Shown piece after piece: positions 9,601 through 18,192 of a stretch of DNA of 64,000 nucleotides (its first letter is position 1; the number at the start of each line of letters is the position of its first letter). The notes under the pieces are model-generated. The model saw only the letters and a program-made list of their open reading frames with translations, did no database searches and was not told the DNA's origin. The position numbers and the translations under genes are program-made. Source of the stretch: Nitrospirota bacterium (GTDB lineage Bacteria; Nitrospirota; Leptospirillia; Leptospirillales; Leptospirillaceae); assembly GCA_021806225.1 (NCBI GenBank), contig JAJZXW010000038.1, positions 1 to 64,000 on the forward strand, read 5' to 3'.

Positions 9601-9987
9601 TTAAACCTGCCCCAGGGTTTTCTGGCCAAAAAGAGCGGTCGATACCCGCGATGCCTTCGCGTAGGCTCCCTGAGGTCCCTGGCCTGAAAGGGCGCGAAGA
9701 CGGGAGGCGAGAGGTCCGTCCTCCCGTCCGAATGGCCCGAGACAGCGGGTCAGGATGTCGATGCGATGGAGAAGCATCACCAATTCCGGAGGCGACAGGA
9801 GATCGGCCAGGGCCACGTTCGCCCGGTCAAGGGCTTCCTGGGCCGCCAGGAGAGGTTCCAGATCCAGCCGTTCGAGCTCGGCCAGGGAAAGAACCCGGAC
9901 TCCTTGGCCGAGAGACACCTTTTCAAAAAGAGTCTCGAGCTGAGCCATGAATTCTCCCGCCAGCTCCTGCCCCGGATCGCGGATCAT
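9601..9987 (-). CDS. small protein downstream of fliS, possible FliT-like chaperone
   Basis: 128-aa ORF, 4-nt overlap with fliS. FliT assignment is by position only. Confidence 0.5.
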   Translation of the reverse strand: MIRDPGQELAGEFMAQLETLFEKVSLGQGVRVLSLAELERLDLEPLLAAQEALDRANVALADLLSPPELVMLLHRIDILTRCLGPFGREDGPLASRLRALSGQGPQGAYAKASRVSTALFGQKTLGQV

Positions 9988-10430
9988 CCGCGCACCGACA
10001 GGGAGCGGCGAGGTGTCTCGCCAGCGTCCGTCTTCGGGGAAAAGGGCAGAGCTGACTTCCTCGAGGAGAGGACCGCAGACCTCCAGGTTCCGAGGAGATC
10101 GGCTATAATCTCACGCACCGGATCGAGACGGCAGAGCTCGCCGGCTACATTGGCCAACGTCACCTCCTGGATCAGGAAAAGGTAGAGGGAGACGAGGGAA
10201 TCGGAAAGGTCTTTCGGCTCCTGGCCGTCTACGGCAGAGGCCAGCTCTGAAAGAATGCCCGTCAGTCTGTTGACAGCATCCGCCCTTCGGGAAATGTCCC
10301 CCGACCGGGCCGACTCCTTGATGATGTCCACGCACCGGATCGCTCCCTCATAAAGACGGATCAGGAGATCGGCCGGAGAGAGCGTGCTTTCCAACGTCTG
10401 ACGGTAGGTTGCGGCGGCGTACTGGTTCAT
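9984..10430 (-). CDS. fliS: flagellar export chaperone FliS
   Basis: MNQYAAATYRQTLESTLSPADLLIRLYEGAIRCVDIIKES typical FliS N-terminus; directly after fliD. Confidence 0.9.
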   Translation of the reverse strand: MNQYAAATYRQTLESTLSPADLLIRLYEGAIRCVDIIKESARSGDISRRADAVNRLTGILSELASAVDGQEPKDLSDSLVSLYLFLIQEVTLANVAGELCRLDPVREIIADLLGTWRSAVLSSRKSALPFSPKTDAGETPRRSLSVRG

Positions 10431-10500: not shown

Positions 10501-11955
10501 CTAGATCACTCCTCGGGCGATTTGCTGGCTGACATAAGCCTGCTTGGCATTGAGCCCCCCAAGAAGGCTCTGAAGCCCCGAATACTTTTCCTCGAGCTGA
10601 TCCTTCAGGGTGGCAAGCTCGTCCTGCTTCCGGGTCATCTGACGGACATTCGTCCGCTCCTGGGCATTGACATCCGCGAGTTCGCCTGCGAGCGGGCCGC
10701 TGGCGGGATTGGCGAACTCCGTCAAAATCTCGTGGAGGGAAGAGGTCACTCCCGGCGCTCCTCCGGACCCGGTCATGAGGTGGACCACATCGTCGTAATT
10801 GGAGGCCAGCGCCTTGTCGAGCTTTCCCTGATCGAAGGAAAGATGGCCGTTTCTCTGGAACGTGATTCCCACATCGGCCAGTGTGCGGTATTTTCCCTGA
10901 ATCTTGTCGGGGAGGGCCCGGGTCAGAGCCGTTCCCAGCCGATTCCTGAGATCGATGACAGAGTAGGCCCCGAGGAGCGGACCTCCCTGTCCCGTTGCCG
11001 GATTGACGCGGGATTCCTTGTCGAGAAAATCCAGAAGATCGTTGTAGGACTTGACCATTCCCCCGATGTTGGTCTTGATGGTCTTGGTATTGTGCACAAT
11101 GGAGGCTGTCGTCGGCGTCGGGCCCGTGGTCTGCCGAAGATGTATTACCGATCCGGGAATGGCGTCCGCAACATCATTGGACTCCGACTGGACCGGAACC
11201 CCGTTGACCTTGAGGTGGGCCATGCTGCCCTTCTGGACCGTCCGGAAGGAGAAATCCAGCCCCTCCTGCTCCATGACCCGGAAGTTCACCCCGTTCTTCG
11301 TCGAAGAGAGCGAGAGGGAATAAGGAGCCCCCGGAGTTCCCGTGCGCATGACCATGGCATGGATCCCGATATTGGCGTTGTTGATGGCCTGGGCCAGATC
11401 CTCCATCGTGAAGCCCGTATCCTGGTTGAGCCGGACCGTCCTGAGATGGCCCCCGACCAGGTGGTTACCGATCAGAAAGGTCATGGTCGCATGGGAAAAG
11501 GCGCCGTCGGGGGGAATATTGAGCACGGAGGTCTTGTCCTTGTCGGGGAATCCCGAGGAGACGAGAACGCCCGGCTTGGCGAGGGAGTCCACGGAGACGC
11601 TGTAGGAGCCGAGGGAGGCCCCGGGTCCGGGGGTGACGGTAAATGCGGAATGAGGGGGAACAATGCTTTTGAAGGCGTTGAAGTCCTCCTTCAGATTCAG
11701 GTGCCCGGAGACCTTGAGGAACCCGTCCAGCTTCTGCTGGATCTGGCGCCAGATGCCGGCCTGTCCTTCGAGATCGGACTGATGCTGCTCCATCTGCTCG
11801 AGGGGGACCGCAGCCGCCTGAAGGTTGGCTTCGACAAGCTTCTCGGTGTCGAGCCCCTGCGAAAGGGCCGCCATGTTCGTGATCCGCATGCGGTGCGGAG
11901 ATGTATCCTGCGGGGGGCCCCCGGCTCCCGGGATCCCTCCGGAAATTCCGCTCAC
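10501..11955 (-). CDS. fliD: flagellar filament cap protein FliD
   Basis: N-terminal ITNMAALSQGLDTEKLVEANL; C-terminal YSGLQSLLGGLNAKQAYVSQQI; position between flagellin and fliS. Confidence 0.9.
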   Translation of the reverse strand: MSGISGGIPGAGGPPQDTSPHRMRITNMAALSQGLDTEKLVEANLQAAAVPLEQMEQHQSDLEGQAGIWRQIQQKLDGFLKVSGHLNLKEDFNAFKSIVPPHSAFTVTPGPGASLGSYSVSVDSLAKPGVLVSSGFPDKDKTSVLNIPPDGAFSHATMTFLIGNHLVGGHLRTVRLNQDTGFTMEDLAQAINNANIGIHAMVMRTGTPGAPYSLSLSSTKNGVNFRVMEQEGLDFSFRTVQKGSMAHLKVNGVPVQSESNDVADAIPGSVIHLRQTTGPTPTTASIVHNTKTIKTNIGGMVKSYNDLLDFLDKESRVNPATGQGGPLLGAYSVIDLRNRLGTALTRALPDKIQGKYRTLADVGITFQRNGHLSFDQGKLDKALASNYDDVVHLMTGSGGAPGVTSSLHEILTEFANPASGPLAGELADVNAQERTNVRQMTRKQDELATLKDQLEEKYSGLQSLLGGLNAKQAYVSQQIARGVI

Positions 11956-12088: not shown

Positions 12089-12916
12089 CTAAGGGAGCAG
12101 CTTGATGGCTGCCTGTGGAATGAGGTTTGCCTGCGCCAGTACGGCCGCGCCCGACTGGGACAGGATCTGTCTCTTTGTGAATTTGGCGGTTTCTCCGGCG
12201 AAATCCACGTCCCGGATTCCGGCCCGGCTCGCCTGGACATTGGTGGTTGCGGTGTTCAGGTTCCGGATCGTCCATTCCATCCGGTCCTGGATGGCACCGA
12301 TGTTGCCCTGCAGTTCGTTGATCCGGTCGAGGGCCTTGTCAAGCTGGTCCACCGAATGTTTGGCATCGTTTCTGTTCAGAATGTCCGTACCGCTGATCCC
12401 AAGCTCGCCGGCGTCCACCTTTCCGACCTTCACATGCAACCGGTCGCTGAAGGTGGTGTAGATGCCGACATGGAACTTGAAATCCGGATGGCTTCCGTCG
12501 AGAAGCTTCATCCCGTTGAAGTCCGTCACCTTCGCGATACGGGTGATTTCCGACTTGAGGTGCTGGTACTCCTGGTTCAGAACCTTGAGATCCTTCGGCG
12601 AATAGGTGCTGTTGGCCGCCTCGATGGCCAGCTGGCGCATCTTCAGAATGATGGTGTTGTCGGTCTGAAGGGCCCCGTTTGCCGTCTGCAGCAGGCTCGA
12701 TCCGTCATTGGCGTTACGGATGGCCGCCGCATAGGACTTGATCTGACCGCCCATGCGCTGGGAGATCGAGTACCCGGCAGGATCGTCCGCGGGAGTGTTC
12801 ACGCGATAGCCTGAGGAGAGCCGGTTAATGTGCTTGTTCAGGGATCGCTGGGTTTCGTTCAGGTTGTACTGCGCATTCAGCGATGCCATGTTGTCGTTGA
12901 TGATCAAACCGCTCAT
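12089..12916 (-). CDS. fliC: flagellin (sigma-28 type)
   Basis: MSGLIINDNMASLNAQYNLNETQRSLNKHINRLSSGYRVNTPADDPAGYSISQRM N-terminus and ILSQSGAAVLAQANLIPQAAIKLLP C-terminus; SD AAGGAGGG. Confidence 0.95.
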   Translation of the reverse strand: MSGLIINDNMASLNAQYNLNETQRSLNKHINRLSSGYRVNTPADDPAGYSISQRMGGQIKSYAAAIRNANDGSSLLQTANGALQTDNTIILKMRQLAIEAANSTYSPKDLKVLNQEYQHLKSEITRIAKVTDFNGMKLLDGSHPDFKFHVGIYTTFSDRLHVKVGKVDAGELGISGTDILNRNDAKHSVDQLDKALDRINELQGNIGAIQDRMEWTIRNLNTATTNVQASRAGIRDVDFAGETAKFTKRQILSQSGAAVLAQANLIPQAAIKLLP

Positions 12917-12920
12917 GATA

Positions 12921-13003
12921 CCCTCCTTGGGTTATTCCGGCCTCATCCCTGGCCTTGTCCTTGATCACCCGGCGACTTGACCGGGACAACGGTCCTCACC
13001 GTT
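12921..13003 (-). promoter_or_regulatory. flagellin mRNA leader with GGA-containing hairpins (candidate CsrA targets)
   Basis: AACGGT-GAGG-ACCGTT (12988-13003), CCCGG...CCGGG (12968-12985), GGCC-AGGGATGA-GGCC (12939-12954), and SD AAGGAGGG (12921-12928). Confidence 0.55.
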
Positions 13004-13012
13004 CCAAGGATC

Positions 13013-13039
13013 TCATCGGCAGGATGCCGGAAAACTTTA
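13013..13039 (-). promoter_or_regulatory. sigma-28 (FliA) promoter for flagellin
   Basis: TAAAGTTT (13039-13032) - N11 - GCCGATGA (13020-13013), one mismatch to the enterobacterial consensus TAAAGTTT-N11-GCCGATAA. The -35 overlaps the csrA-fliW stop codon. Confidence 0.88.
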
Positions 13040-13729
13040 GGAGGGCCCTCCGCCTTTCTCTTCCGGGAGGAAAACGGGCATGCGCAGCCAGGTGTCCGAC
13101 TCGGCCAGAACGACCTGCCGGCCCAGCCGGTCGCTCTCCCGGATGAGGAGGGGACCCTGCAGATTCGCCGAGGCCCCCGTCTCCGAAAAGGTGACGATCG
13201 CCATGGCGTGGAGAGTGGCCGGTCCTTCCGGGTCGAAAAACTCCCGGTCCCAATCCGAAAGGAGGAGCCGATCCCTGTAGTCCGGGACCAGATGGACCGG
13301 ATCGATGACCACAAAGGCCAGAGCGGGATCATCGAGGGACTGGAGCCAATAAAAAACACCGTTTTCGGCCGTCTCGAGAAGGACGAACCGCCGGGAAGAG
13401 GGAAATCCCAGAAGACCGTCGGGAAAGATGATGATCCGCTCGTCCTCCACCGGAATCCTCCCGAAGCGCTTCGTATCAAAAATCTTCATCGCCCCTCCCG
13501 CGCCTGGAGCCGGCAACAGGGCCGCCCCTTCGAGCTTGTCGCGGGAGGTTCCGGTCGCCTTCCTGTTTTCCTCTGTAATACGGGCCAGGACTTCGTCCCT
13601 GTGGATGAGGACCCCCTCGGGAGCTTCGATCCCGATCCGGACGGCTCCGCCCTTCACCTCAAGGACGACGAGGTGGACCGAAGGACCTATCCGGATGCCT
13701 TCTCCGATTTTTCGCGTCAGGATCAGCAT
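13037..13729 (-). CDS. CsrA-FliW fusion protein (translational regulator fused to its antagonist)
   Basis: Single 230-aa ORF: residues ~1-56 are canonical CsrA (MLILTRKIGEGIRIG...VRIGIEAPEGVLIHRDEV), then ~24-aa linker, then FliW (MKIFDTKRFGRIPV...FPDGLLGFPSSRRFVLLE...ANLQGPLLIRESDRLGRQVVL). Confidence 0.9.
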   Translation of the reverse strand: MLILTRKIGEGIRIGPSVHLVVLEVKGGAVRIGIEAPEGVLIHRDEVLARITEENRKATGTSRDKLEGAALLPAPGAGGAMKIFDTKRFGRIPVEDERIIIFPDGLLGFPSSRRFVLLETAENGVFYWLQSLDDPALAFVVIDPVHLVPDYRDRLLLSDWDREFFDPEGPATLHAMAIVTFSETGASANLQGPLLIRESDRLGRQVVLAESDTWLRMPVFLPEEKGGGPS

Positions 13730-13759
13730 GGGAAGCCCCCTCTCGTCACGAACTCCCGG

Positions 13760-14698
13760 TCAATGGAAGAGAACATTCTGCACATTCTGGAGGATGTTCC
13801 GGCTCGCCTTGGCCGACACCTCGAGCAGGTTCTGGGACAGGGCCATGCGCGAAGCGGCCTTTGGAATGTCCACATCTTCCGTTTCACTCCTCAGGACCTT
13901 GAGATCGGTCCGGTATTTCTCGAGCCGTGCGATGGTGCTTCTGAGGGAGCGCTCATAGGTCCCGAGAACGGCCGAACGTTCGGAGATGGAACGAACCGCC
14001 AGATCGAGCTCCCCGATGGCGGTGTGAATGGCCGCATCGTCATTGTTTTTGAGACCCAGGACAAATCGGCGGAGGGCGGGAAAGGCGAGGGGACCATCGG
14101 GATTCTTTTGGGAGTCCCCCAGGACCTCGTCCCCGGAGACGGTTGTCCGCATAAGGCCGGCCTGGCGGAAACTGGGCGTGAACCCCTGCTGAATCGTGGA
14201 GCTTTTGTGGTTGCCCTGGTAGGAAACGAGGTAGGGATCCTTCCGGGAATCTCCGAGCAAGAAGGGGGGAAGGCTGATGTTGGTCCCTCCGAAGAGATAC
14301 TGTTCCCCGCCGCGGGTGTTGGCCAGGGCAACAGTCTGTTCGAGGAGACGGGCCGCCTCTTCCGCGGCGATCCTCCTGTCCTCGGCGTCCATCGTTCCGT
14401 TGGCCTGGCGGATGGCCAGACCCTTGGCCCGGATCATCACGTTGTCGATCTGGGTCAGGATGCTTTCCATCAGGGAGATCCGGCTCGCCCCTTCCCGGGC
14501 GTTCTGGATGATCTGTCCGGTGACCGCAAGCGACCGGTTGATGCGAAGGACCTCGCTCATGGCTTCGGGGGCATCCCCCGGCGTGTCGGCCTTCTTTCCT
14601 GAAGAGACCTGGCGTTCCGACTCGTAGAGATTTTCCGTCGCCCGATCATGGTTGGCCATGAGGGAGCGGTCGGTCATGAGTCCCGTGACCCGGATCAT
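13760..14698 (-). CDS. flgL: flagellar hook-associated protein FlgL
   Basis: TDRSLMANHDRATENLYESERQVSSGKKADTPGDAPEAMSEVLRI; downstream of flgK. Confidence 0.9.
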   Translation of the reverse strand: MIRVTGLMTDRSLMANHDRATENLYESERQVSSGKKADTPGDAPEAMSEVLRINRSLAVTGQIIQNAREGASRISLMESILTQIDNVMIRAKGLAIRQANGTMDAEDRRIAAEEAARLLEQTVALANTRGGEQYLFGGTNISLPPFLLGDSRKDPYLVSYQGNHKSSTIQQGFTPSFRQAGLMRTTVSGDEVLGDSQKNPDGPLAFPALRRFVLGLKNNDDAAIHTAIGELDLAVRSISERSAVLGTYERSLRSTIARLEKYRTDLKVLRSETEDVDIPKAASRMALSQNLLEVSAKASRNILQNVQNVLFH

Positions 14699-14709: not shown

Positions 14710-16389
14710 TCAGCCGCTATTGGGAAGGCGAACGAGGGTGTCGAGAAGCCTGTTCACCATCTGGATCAGGTTGGCCGAGGCCTGATAGGCCTTTTCGAAA
14801 CGAATGATCTTTGCGGACTCGTTGGCGATCGAGACCCCCGAGACGGAGAGCCTCTGATTTTCAAGACTCTGGGAGATCGCGACCTGAGCCTTGTCGTTCA
14901 GCCGGGCCTGTCGGGCCCAGGCTCCGACCCGGGCCACCCCAGAGGCGTAGTACTCGTAGATCGAAGAGGGCTCGTCCTCGCCCGGAAAACGAAGATGCTT
15001 CTGGGAAAGATAAAAGATCTGGTGGGCGTTCGCGTTGTCCCCCTCGTTCTTTCCGGGGGTTGCGACAGACTGGGCGGCGGCGATATCGTCCGCCGTCAAG
15101 TGCGTCACATCCAAATGGAGCGCTGCCCCATCCACGTGCCCCCCACCCGAAACCAGAAAACTCTCCGCTCCCTTTTTGGGGGCCAGTACGCGGATGGCGT
15201 ACCCTCCCGCAGAGACCTGCCCGACTCCGTCCGTGACCTGGGCGCTTCCCAGAAGAACGTGATCGGCGTGAGAAAAAACCTTCACTCCGGCCGCATCGAC
15301 CTCGACATCCACCGCCGGAAGAACGTCGGCAGCATCCTCCACGTTGGCAACCAGAGCCCCCGTCCCCTCTCCCTTCGTCCGCGCCACGTCGACGGTCGGA
15401 CGGAAGAAATTGACCCCGGTCTGGCCCGACAGGCCAAAACCCCGTGCATGGATCGCGTTGACGCTGTTCACCACCTGGTAGGCCAGAAGATCGAGATGAT
15501 GTTGCAACGCCTTTATCTTGTGGTCCCGGACATCGAGATAGCCGCCGAGGGTTCCGCCCCGGACACGGTCGGTGATGTCGATGGGCGGTCCGGAATGGGA
15601 AGGGGGGGAGAATTCCATCCGGTAGCGGTCGTGGACGGGATCGAACACGGCCGTCATGTGACCGACCTCCTCCGCAGAAAAGGCCGACTGGCCACCCAGA
15701 TGAAGGTTCAGGGAGCCGTCCTTGTCATGAAAAAAATGCGCGTTCGTGAGACGTGAAACCTCCGTCGCCAGGCGGGTGCGCTCGTCGAGAAAGGTGTTCG
15801 GATCCTCCCCCCGGCCTCGGGCCGCCAGAATGTTGTGGTTCAATTCGGCGATCCTGGCAATCCGCGTATTGATTTTCGCGACCTGGTCCTCGATCTGATG
15901 GCCAAGACGGTTCCGGGCTTCGGCATAAAGAGCGGTCATCTGATGAAAATCCTGGCCAAGATTGCGACCGTAGGTCACCAGCGTGGACCGGGCGGCACGG
16001 TCGACCGGATGGTTGGCCACCGTTTCCCAATGGTTGAAAAAACGGGAGAGGTCCCGGGAAAGTCCCTCCGACTGGGCATGAAAATAGTAGGAATCGATCT
16101 CTCCCAAAGAGGTTCGGGAGGACTCCCAGAAGCCGAGGGTCGTCTTTTGGCGGGTCGACTGGTTTTCCAGAAAATGATTGACCACACGCCGAATCCTGCG
16201 CGCATCGACCCCGGACCCCATCATGCCCGGATGGCCCATGTCCGGAACATGCTGCTCGAGAATGACGCGCTCCCGGGAATAACCGGGCGTGTTGACATTG
16301 GAAAGATTGTGTCCGGCCGTCTTGAGGGCCGCCTCGTTGGCCTCGATCCCGGTCTGGCCGATGTTCATGACCCCGATAATACCCGACAT
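14710..16389 (-). CDS. flgK: flagellar hook-associated protein FlgK
   Basis: MSGIIGVMNIGQTGIEANEAALKTAGHNLSNVNTPGYSRERVIL; start ATG at 16389 with GGAGG upstream. Confidence 0.95.
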   Translation of the reverse strand: MSGIIGVMNIGQTGIEANEAALKTAGHNLSNVNTPGYSRERVILEQHVPDMGHPGMMGSGVDARRIRRVVNHFLENQSTRQKTTLGFWESSRTSLGEIDSYYFHAQSEGLSRDLSRFFNHWETVANHPVDRAARSTLVTYGRNLGQDFHQMTALYAEARNRLGHQIEDQVAKINTRIARIAELNHNILAARGRGEDPNTFLDERTRLATEVSRLTNAHFFHDKDGSLNLHLGGQSAFSAEEVGHMTAVFDPVHDRYRMEFSPPSHSGPPIDITDRVRGGTLGGYLDVRDHKIKALQHHLDLLAYQVVNSVNAIHARGFGLSGQTGVNFFRPTVDVARTKGEGTGALVANVEDAADVLPAVDVEVDAAGVKVFSHADHVLLGSAQVTDGVGQVSAGGYAIRVLAPKKGAESFLVSGGGHVDGAALHLDVTHLTADDIAAAQSVATPGKNEGDNANAHQIFYLSQKHLRFPGEDEPSSIYEYYASGVARVGAWARQARLNDKAQVAISQSLENQRLSVSGVSIANESAKIIRFEKAYQASANLIQMVNRLLDTLVRLPNSG

Positions 16390-16419
16390 TGCCACCCTCC
16401 AGGATTGACAGGACCGAGC

Positions 16420-16880: not shown

Positions 16881-17225
16881 TCAGGAACCGGAGGGGGCGC
16901 CTCCGTGATCCTTGCCCCAGGCGATCATCTTTTTTGCCACATCCCTGGAGGGAACCGAATAGCTTCCGTTCCTGATCTGTTCGCGCAATTCGGCGATCCG
17001 CTCCTCACGCACCTCAGGCACCTTGGATATCTCCTCGCGCAATCGGGCCACCTGTCGGGCGGGCCCAGAGATCTCCAGCACGTCCGACTCAACGATCCGT
17101 GTCACAGGAACCGGAGTCTTCCTGCTTTCATTGTCGGGCTCGCCGACGGCCGCCTTCTTCGATAGCTTTTCTGGGCGGTCCGGTATCCGGGCCGATCCCG
17201 GCGGTGTCACCTTGGGGTCGCTCAT
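16881..17225 (-). CDS. flgM: anti-sigma-28 factor FlgM
   Basis: C-terminal SDVLEISGPARQVARLREEISKVPEVREERIAELREQIRNGSYSVPSRDVAKKMI is FlgM-like; start placed at MSDPKV because the upstream ORF extension lies over the promoter. Confidence 0.88.
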   Translation of the reverse strand: MSDPKVTPPGSARIPDRPEKLSKKAAVGEPDNESRKTPVPVTRIVESDVLEISGPARQVARLREEISKVPEVREERIAELREQIRNGSYSVPSRDVAKKMIAWGKDHGGAPSGS

Positions 17226-17269
17226 CAATGATCCTCCATGAATTCGGGAAACAGAGTCCCTCAAGTCAC

Positions 17270-17297
17270 CTATCGGCATTTCACACTTCAGACTTTA
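17270..17297 (-). promoter_or_regulatory. sigma-28 promoter upstream of flgM
   Basis: TAAAGTCT (17297-17290) - N12 - GCCGATAG (17277-17270). Confidence 0.8.
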
Positions 17298-17331: not shown

Positions 17332-18192
17332 CTACGGAATCAGCTTGATCGCCGCCTGGGGAATCTGGTTCGCCTGGGCCAGAACGGCGGTTCCGGACTG
17401 CTGGAGAATTCGGTCCCGGACAAACCGTGAGGTTTCCTTGGCGAAATTCGCATCCTTGATCTGGGACTTTGTGGCAGCGATATTCACCAGGGCGGTGTTC
17501 AGGTTCCGAATGGTCCAGGTCATGCGCTGCTGGAAGGCTCCGAGGGTTCCCTGGATCCGGTTCAGTTCGTCGAGGGCCCCGTCGATGGCGGAGATGGCCG
17601 AAAGCGCCATGTTGCCGTTGATCACCGATGTCATCCCCAATGGCATGACCAACGTGCTTCCGTTGTACAGCCCGAGAACATCGCTGCTGATGGAGGGAAC
17701 GGCGATGACAAGCCGGTTCTCCCCTTCCGTTCCGACGTCGACCTGAAAGGTCAACCCGCTTTCGAGACTGCCGTCGAGCACCTTCCGCCCGTTGAAGTTG
17801 GCAACCTTCGCGATCCGGTTGATTTCGCTCATGAGGTTCTGGTACTCGTTCTGGAGGGTCGACAGGTCCGTGGGGCTATAGGTCCCGTTCGCCGCCTGAA
17901 TGGCGAGTGAGCGCATCTTGATCAGAATTTCGTTGTCCGTCAGGAGCGCTCCTCCGATCGTCTGGATCAGATTGGCTCCGTCGTTGGCGTTCCTGACGGC
18001 CTGCTGGACGGATTTCATGTAGGCGGTCATGACCTGCCCGATGGCGTACCCCGCCGGATCGTCCGCCGGAGCGTTGACCCGGTATCCGGACGACAGCCGG
18101 TTGATGGTCTGATTGATCCGGTTCTGGGTTTCATTCAGGTTGTATTGAGCGCCCAGGGAGGCCGCGTTGGTGTTGATGACCAATCCACTCAT
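17332..18192 (-). CDS. fliC: flagellin (last gene of the flgFGAHIJ unit)
   Basis: MSGLVINTNAASLGAQYNLNETQNRINQTINRLSSGYRVNAPADDPAGYAIGQ; C-terminus ILQQSGTAVLAQANQIPQAAIKLIP; SD AGGAGGA; starts ~10 nt after flgJ. Confidence 0.95.
   Translation of the reverse strand: MSGLVINTNAASLGAQYNLNETQNRINQTINRLSSGYRVNAPADDPAGYAIGQVMTAYMKSVQQAVRNANDGANLIQTIGGALLTDNEILIKMRSLAIQAANGTYSPTDLSTLQNEYQNLMSEINRIAKVANFNGRKVLDGSLESGLTFQVDVGTEGENRLVIAVPSISSDVLGLYNGSTLVMPLGMTSVINGNMALSAISAIDGALDELNRIQGTLGAFQQRMTWTIRNLNTALVNIAATKSQIKDANFAKETSRFVRDRILQQSGTAVLAQANQIPQAAIKLIP

Follow-up and report, generated by a model that had tools for sequence, protein, structure and literature searches.

The csrA and fliW genes of a Nitrospirota bacterium are joined in one open reading frame (ORF), and the joined frame is kept across its genus. 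The window, i.e., the whole stretch of 64,000 nucleotides that was analysed (contig JAJZXW010000038.1), carries this gene within a flagellar cluster. Judging from sequence comparisons, it is fairly likely that this genus-wide in-frame fusion runs the flagellin switch as a single gene, probably also yielding free FliW. The best reading is that of a real and conserved fusion, in which the FliC-FliW-CsrA homeostasis switch has been rewired into one gene. No earlier report of a CsrA-FliW fusion was found in the open-access literature searched.

The ORF occupies positions 13037-13729 of the minus strand, starts with ATG, ends with TGA, and encodes 230 aa comprising CsrA and FliW (Table 1). The preliminary description had placed both proteins on this single frame, and the domain search of the product bore this out: Pfam CsrA (PF02599) matched aa 1-53 (E 2e-19, 69.6 bits vs a cut-off of 27), TIGR00202 (csrA) scored 82.4 bits vs a cut-off of 70.1, and Pfam FliW (PF02623) matched aa 100-218 (E 2e-27, 95.9 bits vs a cut-off of 25). 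Across Pfam and NCBIfam the domain limits are aa 1-53/66 for CsrA and aa 81/100-218/221 for FliW. In the PDB, the FliW half aligned with FliW structures (2aj7, 5dmb family) and the CsrA half with structures of CsrA. An AlphaFold monomer model built on a 47-row alignment (mean pLDDT 78) has two folded parts separated by a low-confidence stretch at aa 61-80, and its FliW part was matched by Foldseek to 5jak, 5dmd and 5dmb with TM scores (target) of 0.80-0.87; a model from an 11-row alignment (pLDDT 43) was discarded. The conserved HRDE pointed out earlier corresponds to aa 43-46 and contains the RNA-contacting R44. The RNA-binding residues L4 and R6 of CsrA are, together with R44, invariant in 11 orthologs, and the predicted FliW contacts I51 and N55 are present and likewise invariant. 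The linker of about 21 residues is rich in Gly/Ala/Pro, as had been noted, in the window protein; this composition is not kept in relatives and is no shared trait.

Table 1. Features of the csrA-fliW locus and its surroundings (window positions).
Feature	Position	Strand	Basis or remark
csrA Shine-Dalgarno GAGAGGGGG	13736..13744	-	start codon ATG in this genome; most family members have ATT
csrA-fliW fusion ORF, 230 aa	13037..13729	-	ORF call, Pfam/TIGR00202 matches, orthologs
CsrA domain, aa 1-59 (L4, R6, R44, I51, N55)	13553..13729	-	PF02599, invariant columns
Linker, aa 60-80, species-variable	13490..13552	-	41% mean identity, dN/dS 0.45, low confidence in model
FliW domain, aa 81-230	13040..13489	-	PF02623; Foldseek to 5jak/5dmd/5dmb
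Putative internal FliW start codon ATG, aa 81	13487..13489	-	ATG/GTG in 12/12 genus orthologs; simulation
Shine-Dalgarno-like GGGAGGGG in linker, before FliW start	13492..13499	-	duplex -10.8 kcal/mol
Flagellin mRNA leader, 120 nt	12917..13036	-	86% mean column identity, 10 species
Leader hairpin AACGGTGAGGACCGTT, GGA at loop	12988..13003	-	three compensated pairs between sub-clades
Putative CsrA consensus site CAGGGATG	12944..12951	-	CANGGAU homolog in 17/17 family leaders
Putative CsrA consensus site CAAGGAG over flagellin Shine-Dalgarno	12923..12929	-	17/17 family leaders
Flagellin, 275 aa, presumed CsrA target	12089..12916	-	Pfam Flagellin_N/C
flgL	13760..14698	-	between flgK and csrA; Flagellin_N/C match
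flgK	14710..16395	-	Pfam FlgK_D1
fliD	10501..11955	-	Pfam FliD_N/FliD_C
fliS	9984..10430	-	Pfam FliS
flgM	16881..17279	-	Pfam FlgM

The host genus consists of acid-water bacteria, and the fusion is present in 12 species including that of the window. Among the 40 relatives searched, 11 other congeneric species have an uninterrupted frame with 62-94% identity; within the fused set of 12 species, 11 frames are complete and one (L012) is cut by a contig end. The genes are fused in all congeners in which the locus is intact. In G011, csrA and fliW are located on two contig ends and the gap falls within the linker. Another genome of the genus, G008, had no match to csrA, fliW or flgL, and its flagellar locus may be absent or unassembled, reflecting either motility loss or an assembly gap. 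Five of the loci from the fused genus also occur in named records, all of them 'Nitrospirae bacterium' assemblies, and most of the genomes compared are incomplete metagenome assemblies (G000 is 67% complete). In the 13 genus genomes with CsrA/FliW, both proteins are encoded at the fusion locus only, the one exception being a short piece of FliW in G013; the fusion is the sole CsrA found in the genus genomes, since CsrA is confined to this locus. The window genome, an incomplete assembly of 1.43 Mb (67% complete), contained no further CsrA or FliW. Among the genus orthologs, NG86 dN/dS equals 0.08 for CsrA, 0.16 for FliW and 0.45 for the linker, with mean amino-acid identities of 85%, 75% and 41%, respectively. 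These values indicate that the CsrA and FliW domains are both under purifying selection.

Two separate genes in close relatives, regarded in the preliminary description as speaking against the fusion, were not found in congeners with an intact locus but do exist in the sister genera, where they overlap. In the nearest of these (L015, L017-L021, L030) csrA is followed by fliW in a different frame, with a 4-nt overlap (ATGA/GTGA) and a CsrA of 93-94 aa. The sister loci resemble the fusion in gene order, in the flagellin leader sites and in the AUU start of csrA, whereas they differ in the separate overlapping frames and in a start-to-start distance longer by about 30-40 nt: 278/281 nt from csrA start to fliW start (remainder 2 mod 3), as compared to 240/249 nt in the fused genus. 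A putative frame-changing net shortening of the CsrA tail, starting from overlapping csrA/fliW genes, explains the fusion. In a survey of 396 Nitrospirota genomes, a stop-free frame over both domains was found in the window's genus only, among the matches listed. The fusion surveys covered Nitrospirota and the phylum of G396, in the domain order CsrA-then-FliW only.

The components of the proposed switch are known from other bacteria. In C. jejuni, V51 and N55 of CsrA bind FliW and R44 binds RNA, two FliW bind per CsrA dimer, and the affinity is high (PMC7829508). Bacillus has fliW as a gene of its own that lies before csrA and overlaps it, and in B. subtilis a ratio of FliW to CsrA dimer near 1:1 is provided by the overlapping genes and translational coupling (PMC6529632). 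The B. subtilis Hag-FliW-CsrA and C. jejuni CsrA-FliW systems share with the window the protein families, N55 and I/V51, and a GGA over the flagellin Shine-Dalgarno; in Bacillus, however, fliW comes first and the genes are separate, whereas in the window csrA comes first and one polypeptide is made. The fusion has a rationale, since B. subtilis balances FliW and CsrA by gene overlap and translational coupling; by analogy, the fused frames are a stricter form of this coupling. CsrA would block flagellin translation through GGA sites that overlap the Shine-Dalgarno or lie shortly before it, FliW would antagonise CsrA, and cytoplasmic flagellin would titrate FliW. With the fusion, each CsrA monomer would come with no fewer than one FliW; as CsrA forms homodimers, a CsrA2-FliW2 unit would result, in which FliW may dock in cis or in trans. 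We infer that the leader sites are bound, and that FliW within the fusion is released by flagellin.

The neighbourhood and the flagellin leader are consistent with such control. Upstream of the fusion lie flgM, a FlgN-like gene, flgK and flgL, and downstream lie flagellin, fliD and fliS; a position beside flgK-flgL and flagellin is shared with the Hag-FliW-CsrA system. Two GGA sites, one of them over the Shine-Dalgarno, precede the flagellin gene in 17/17 family leaders: a CANGGAU element around position -36 and a CAAGGAG element at -13. The site CAGGGATG, which matches the known CsrA consensus, falls in the loop predicted for a GGCC/GGCC stem if only the final 47 nt are folded, and in all seven sister leaders CANGGAU lies between complementary GGTCC/GGACC arms and is accompanied by CAAGGAG. 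The longer predicted leader fold disagrees with the local GGA hairpin, the leader fold energies are not outstanding, and the fold z-scores are weak. The CARGGAWG motif by itself occurs 19 times in the window against an expectation of 13.9, which is no enrichment, and its weight comes only from position and conservation. Rfam gave no match near the locus. Further upstream in the leader, the hairpin AACGGTGAGGACCGTT is swapped for GAGGCGAAGAGGATCGCCTC in another sub-clade by paired changes, the GGA staying in or at the loop. A second flagellin gene (17332-18192, minus strand, ATG at 18192) is located upstream of flgM and has a plain Shine-Dalgarno without CsrA consensus sites. The leaders suggest that CsrA control may be limited to one of the two flagellins.

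It appears that the fusion arose on two or more occasions. The survey of 395 genomes from the phylum of L036, taken as Desulfobacterota, revealed three stop-free CsrA-FliW fusions confirmed by Pfam, and within the order of L038-L040 the genes are fused in 5 of 29 genomes, while two relatives have an in-frame pair interrupted by a stop. G588, G403, G793 and G792 are 84-86% identical to each other's query, L040 (G715) is 47-50% identical to them, and the Desulfobacterota fusions share about 37% identity with the window protein. All of them (L038-L040, G792, G793) resemble the window's fusion in domain order and are of comparable length (234-253 aa for the three whose sequences were read), but they differ in their probably separate origin, in the loss of the FliW start (L038/L039) and in non-flagellar neighbours (L038). 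We infer one or two events apart from that in the window's genus, because relatives of each fused group keep separate genes. No start codon with a Shine-Dalgarno was found at the FliW start of L038 and L039; L040 has TTG there, behind a strong Shine-Dalgarno. Three of the five fused genomes (G588, G715, G792) contain an additional short stand-alone csrA, and the neighbours of L038 are not flagellar genes. In a tblastn search of plasmids, the one top match opened contained separate genes with fliW before csrA.

Where FliW begins, 12/12 genus orthologs have an ATG or GTG codon, although the flanking residues vary. When an ATG was simulated on the linker tree, the probability that all 11 complete orthologs stay ATG/GTG was 0.0013, rising to 0.007, 0.03 and 0.17 at linker rates reduced to 0.75x, half and a quarter. 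In 11 of the 12 species the duplex energy of the internal Shine-Dalgarno lies between -7.5 and -11.5 kcal/mol (-4.3 in L005), and only 1.7% of the 701 in-frame internal ATG/GTG codons in the window match the strength of -10.8 kcal/mol. When these Gly-rich residues are encoded by randomly drawn synonymous codons, the duplex is almost as strong and the difference is not significant; therefore the internal Shine-Dalgarno is no separate proof of selection. Since every genus ortholog keeps the junction start codon, usually with a Shine-Dalgarno, free FliW would probably be made as a second product, and its production by internal initiation is reasonably likely. The locus thus probably makes two proteins, free FliW and its fusion to CsrA. 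The covalent fusion described in the preliminary description is correct and conserved, whereas the intramolecular inhibition proposed there is partly supported: it is plausible given the linker of about 21 residues and the invariant I51/N55, but probably incomplete, as the FliW start is retained.

An obligate fusion, with only the full-length protein made, the junction ATG and Gly-rich codons as leftovers, and control exerted within the fused dimer, is the alternative that fares best, yet it seems unlikely. With the frame open throughout, a full-length product is assured, the synonymous-codon test needs no selection on the Shine-Dalgarno, and L038/L039 are without a usable FliW start and Shine-Dalgarno, therefore fusion-only systems can exist. 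Nevertheless, the start codon is retained in every genus ortholog despite the low identity of the linker, and most internal Shine-Dalgarnos rank among the window's strongest. It is less probable still that the halves act separately, by a post-translational cut or with the fusion mostly bypassed by internal initiation, so that the joining is functionally near neutral. The linker evolves fast and is predicted with low confidence, as in disordered linkers, and the internal start is retained; however, no stop codon ends the CsrA part, hence each CsrA carries FliW unless cut, no conserved linker segment fits a cleavage site, and a similar fusion is fixed in a second phylum. The tether raises the local FliW concentration and the FliW-CsrA affinity is already high (PMC7829508), so the fusion might lock CsrA off permanently, the genus having lost CsrA control of flagellin; this is very improbable given the invariant RNA-binding residues, the low CsrA dN/dS, and both GGA sites kept in the flagellin leader. 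An assembly or sequencing artefact, or a chance open frame, can be dismissed even though the window comes from an incomplete assembly, because the frame stays uninterrupted in assemblies of 11 other species.

AUU is an uncommon start codon, and IF3 (infC) limits its use. At the codon corresponding to 13727-13729, the 12 fused species have ATT (nine), ATA (one) or ATG (the window genome and G002), and ATT is found in 7/7 sister loci; a global regulator thus has a conserved AUU start (one ATA) across L003-L012, L015, L017-L021 and L030. Within the family, the spacing between the csrA start and the strong Shine-Dalgarno just upstream is nearly constant; in loci from outside the family csrA has an ATG or GTG start, and no report of an AUU start of csrA was found in the literature searched. 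Chances are about even that one frame gives self-inhibited CsrA-FliW plus free FliW in a ratio set by unequal start sites (AUU/ATG for csrA vs ATG/GTG for fliW).

The fusion bears on how FliW inhibits CsrA (allosteric, steric or charge effects) and on the reason for a fixed ratio of the two proteins. As a natural pair of fixed stoichiometry, it is a ready construct for structural work and for tests of partner switching by flagellin. If the ratio is indeed set in this way, two unequal start sites would give these bacteria a hard-wired flagellin set point.
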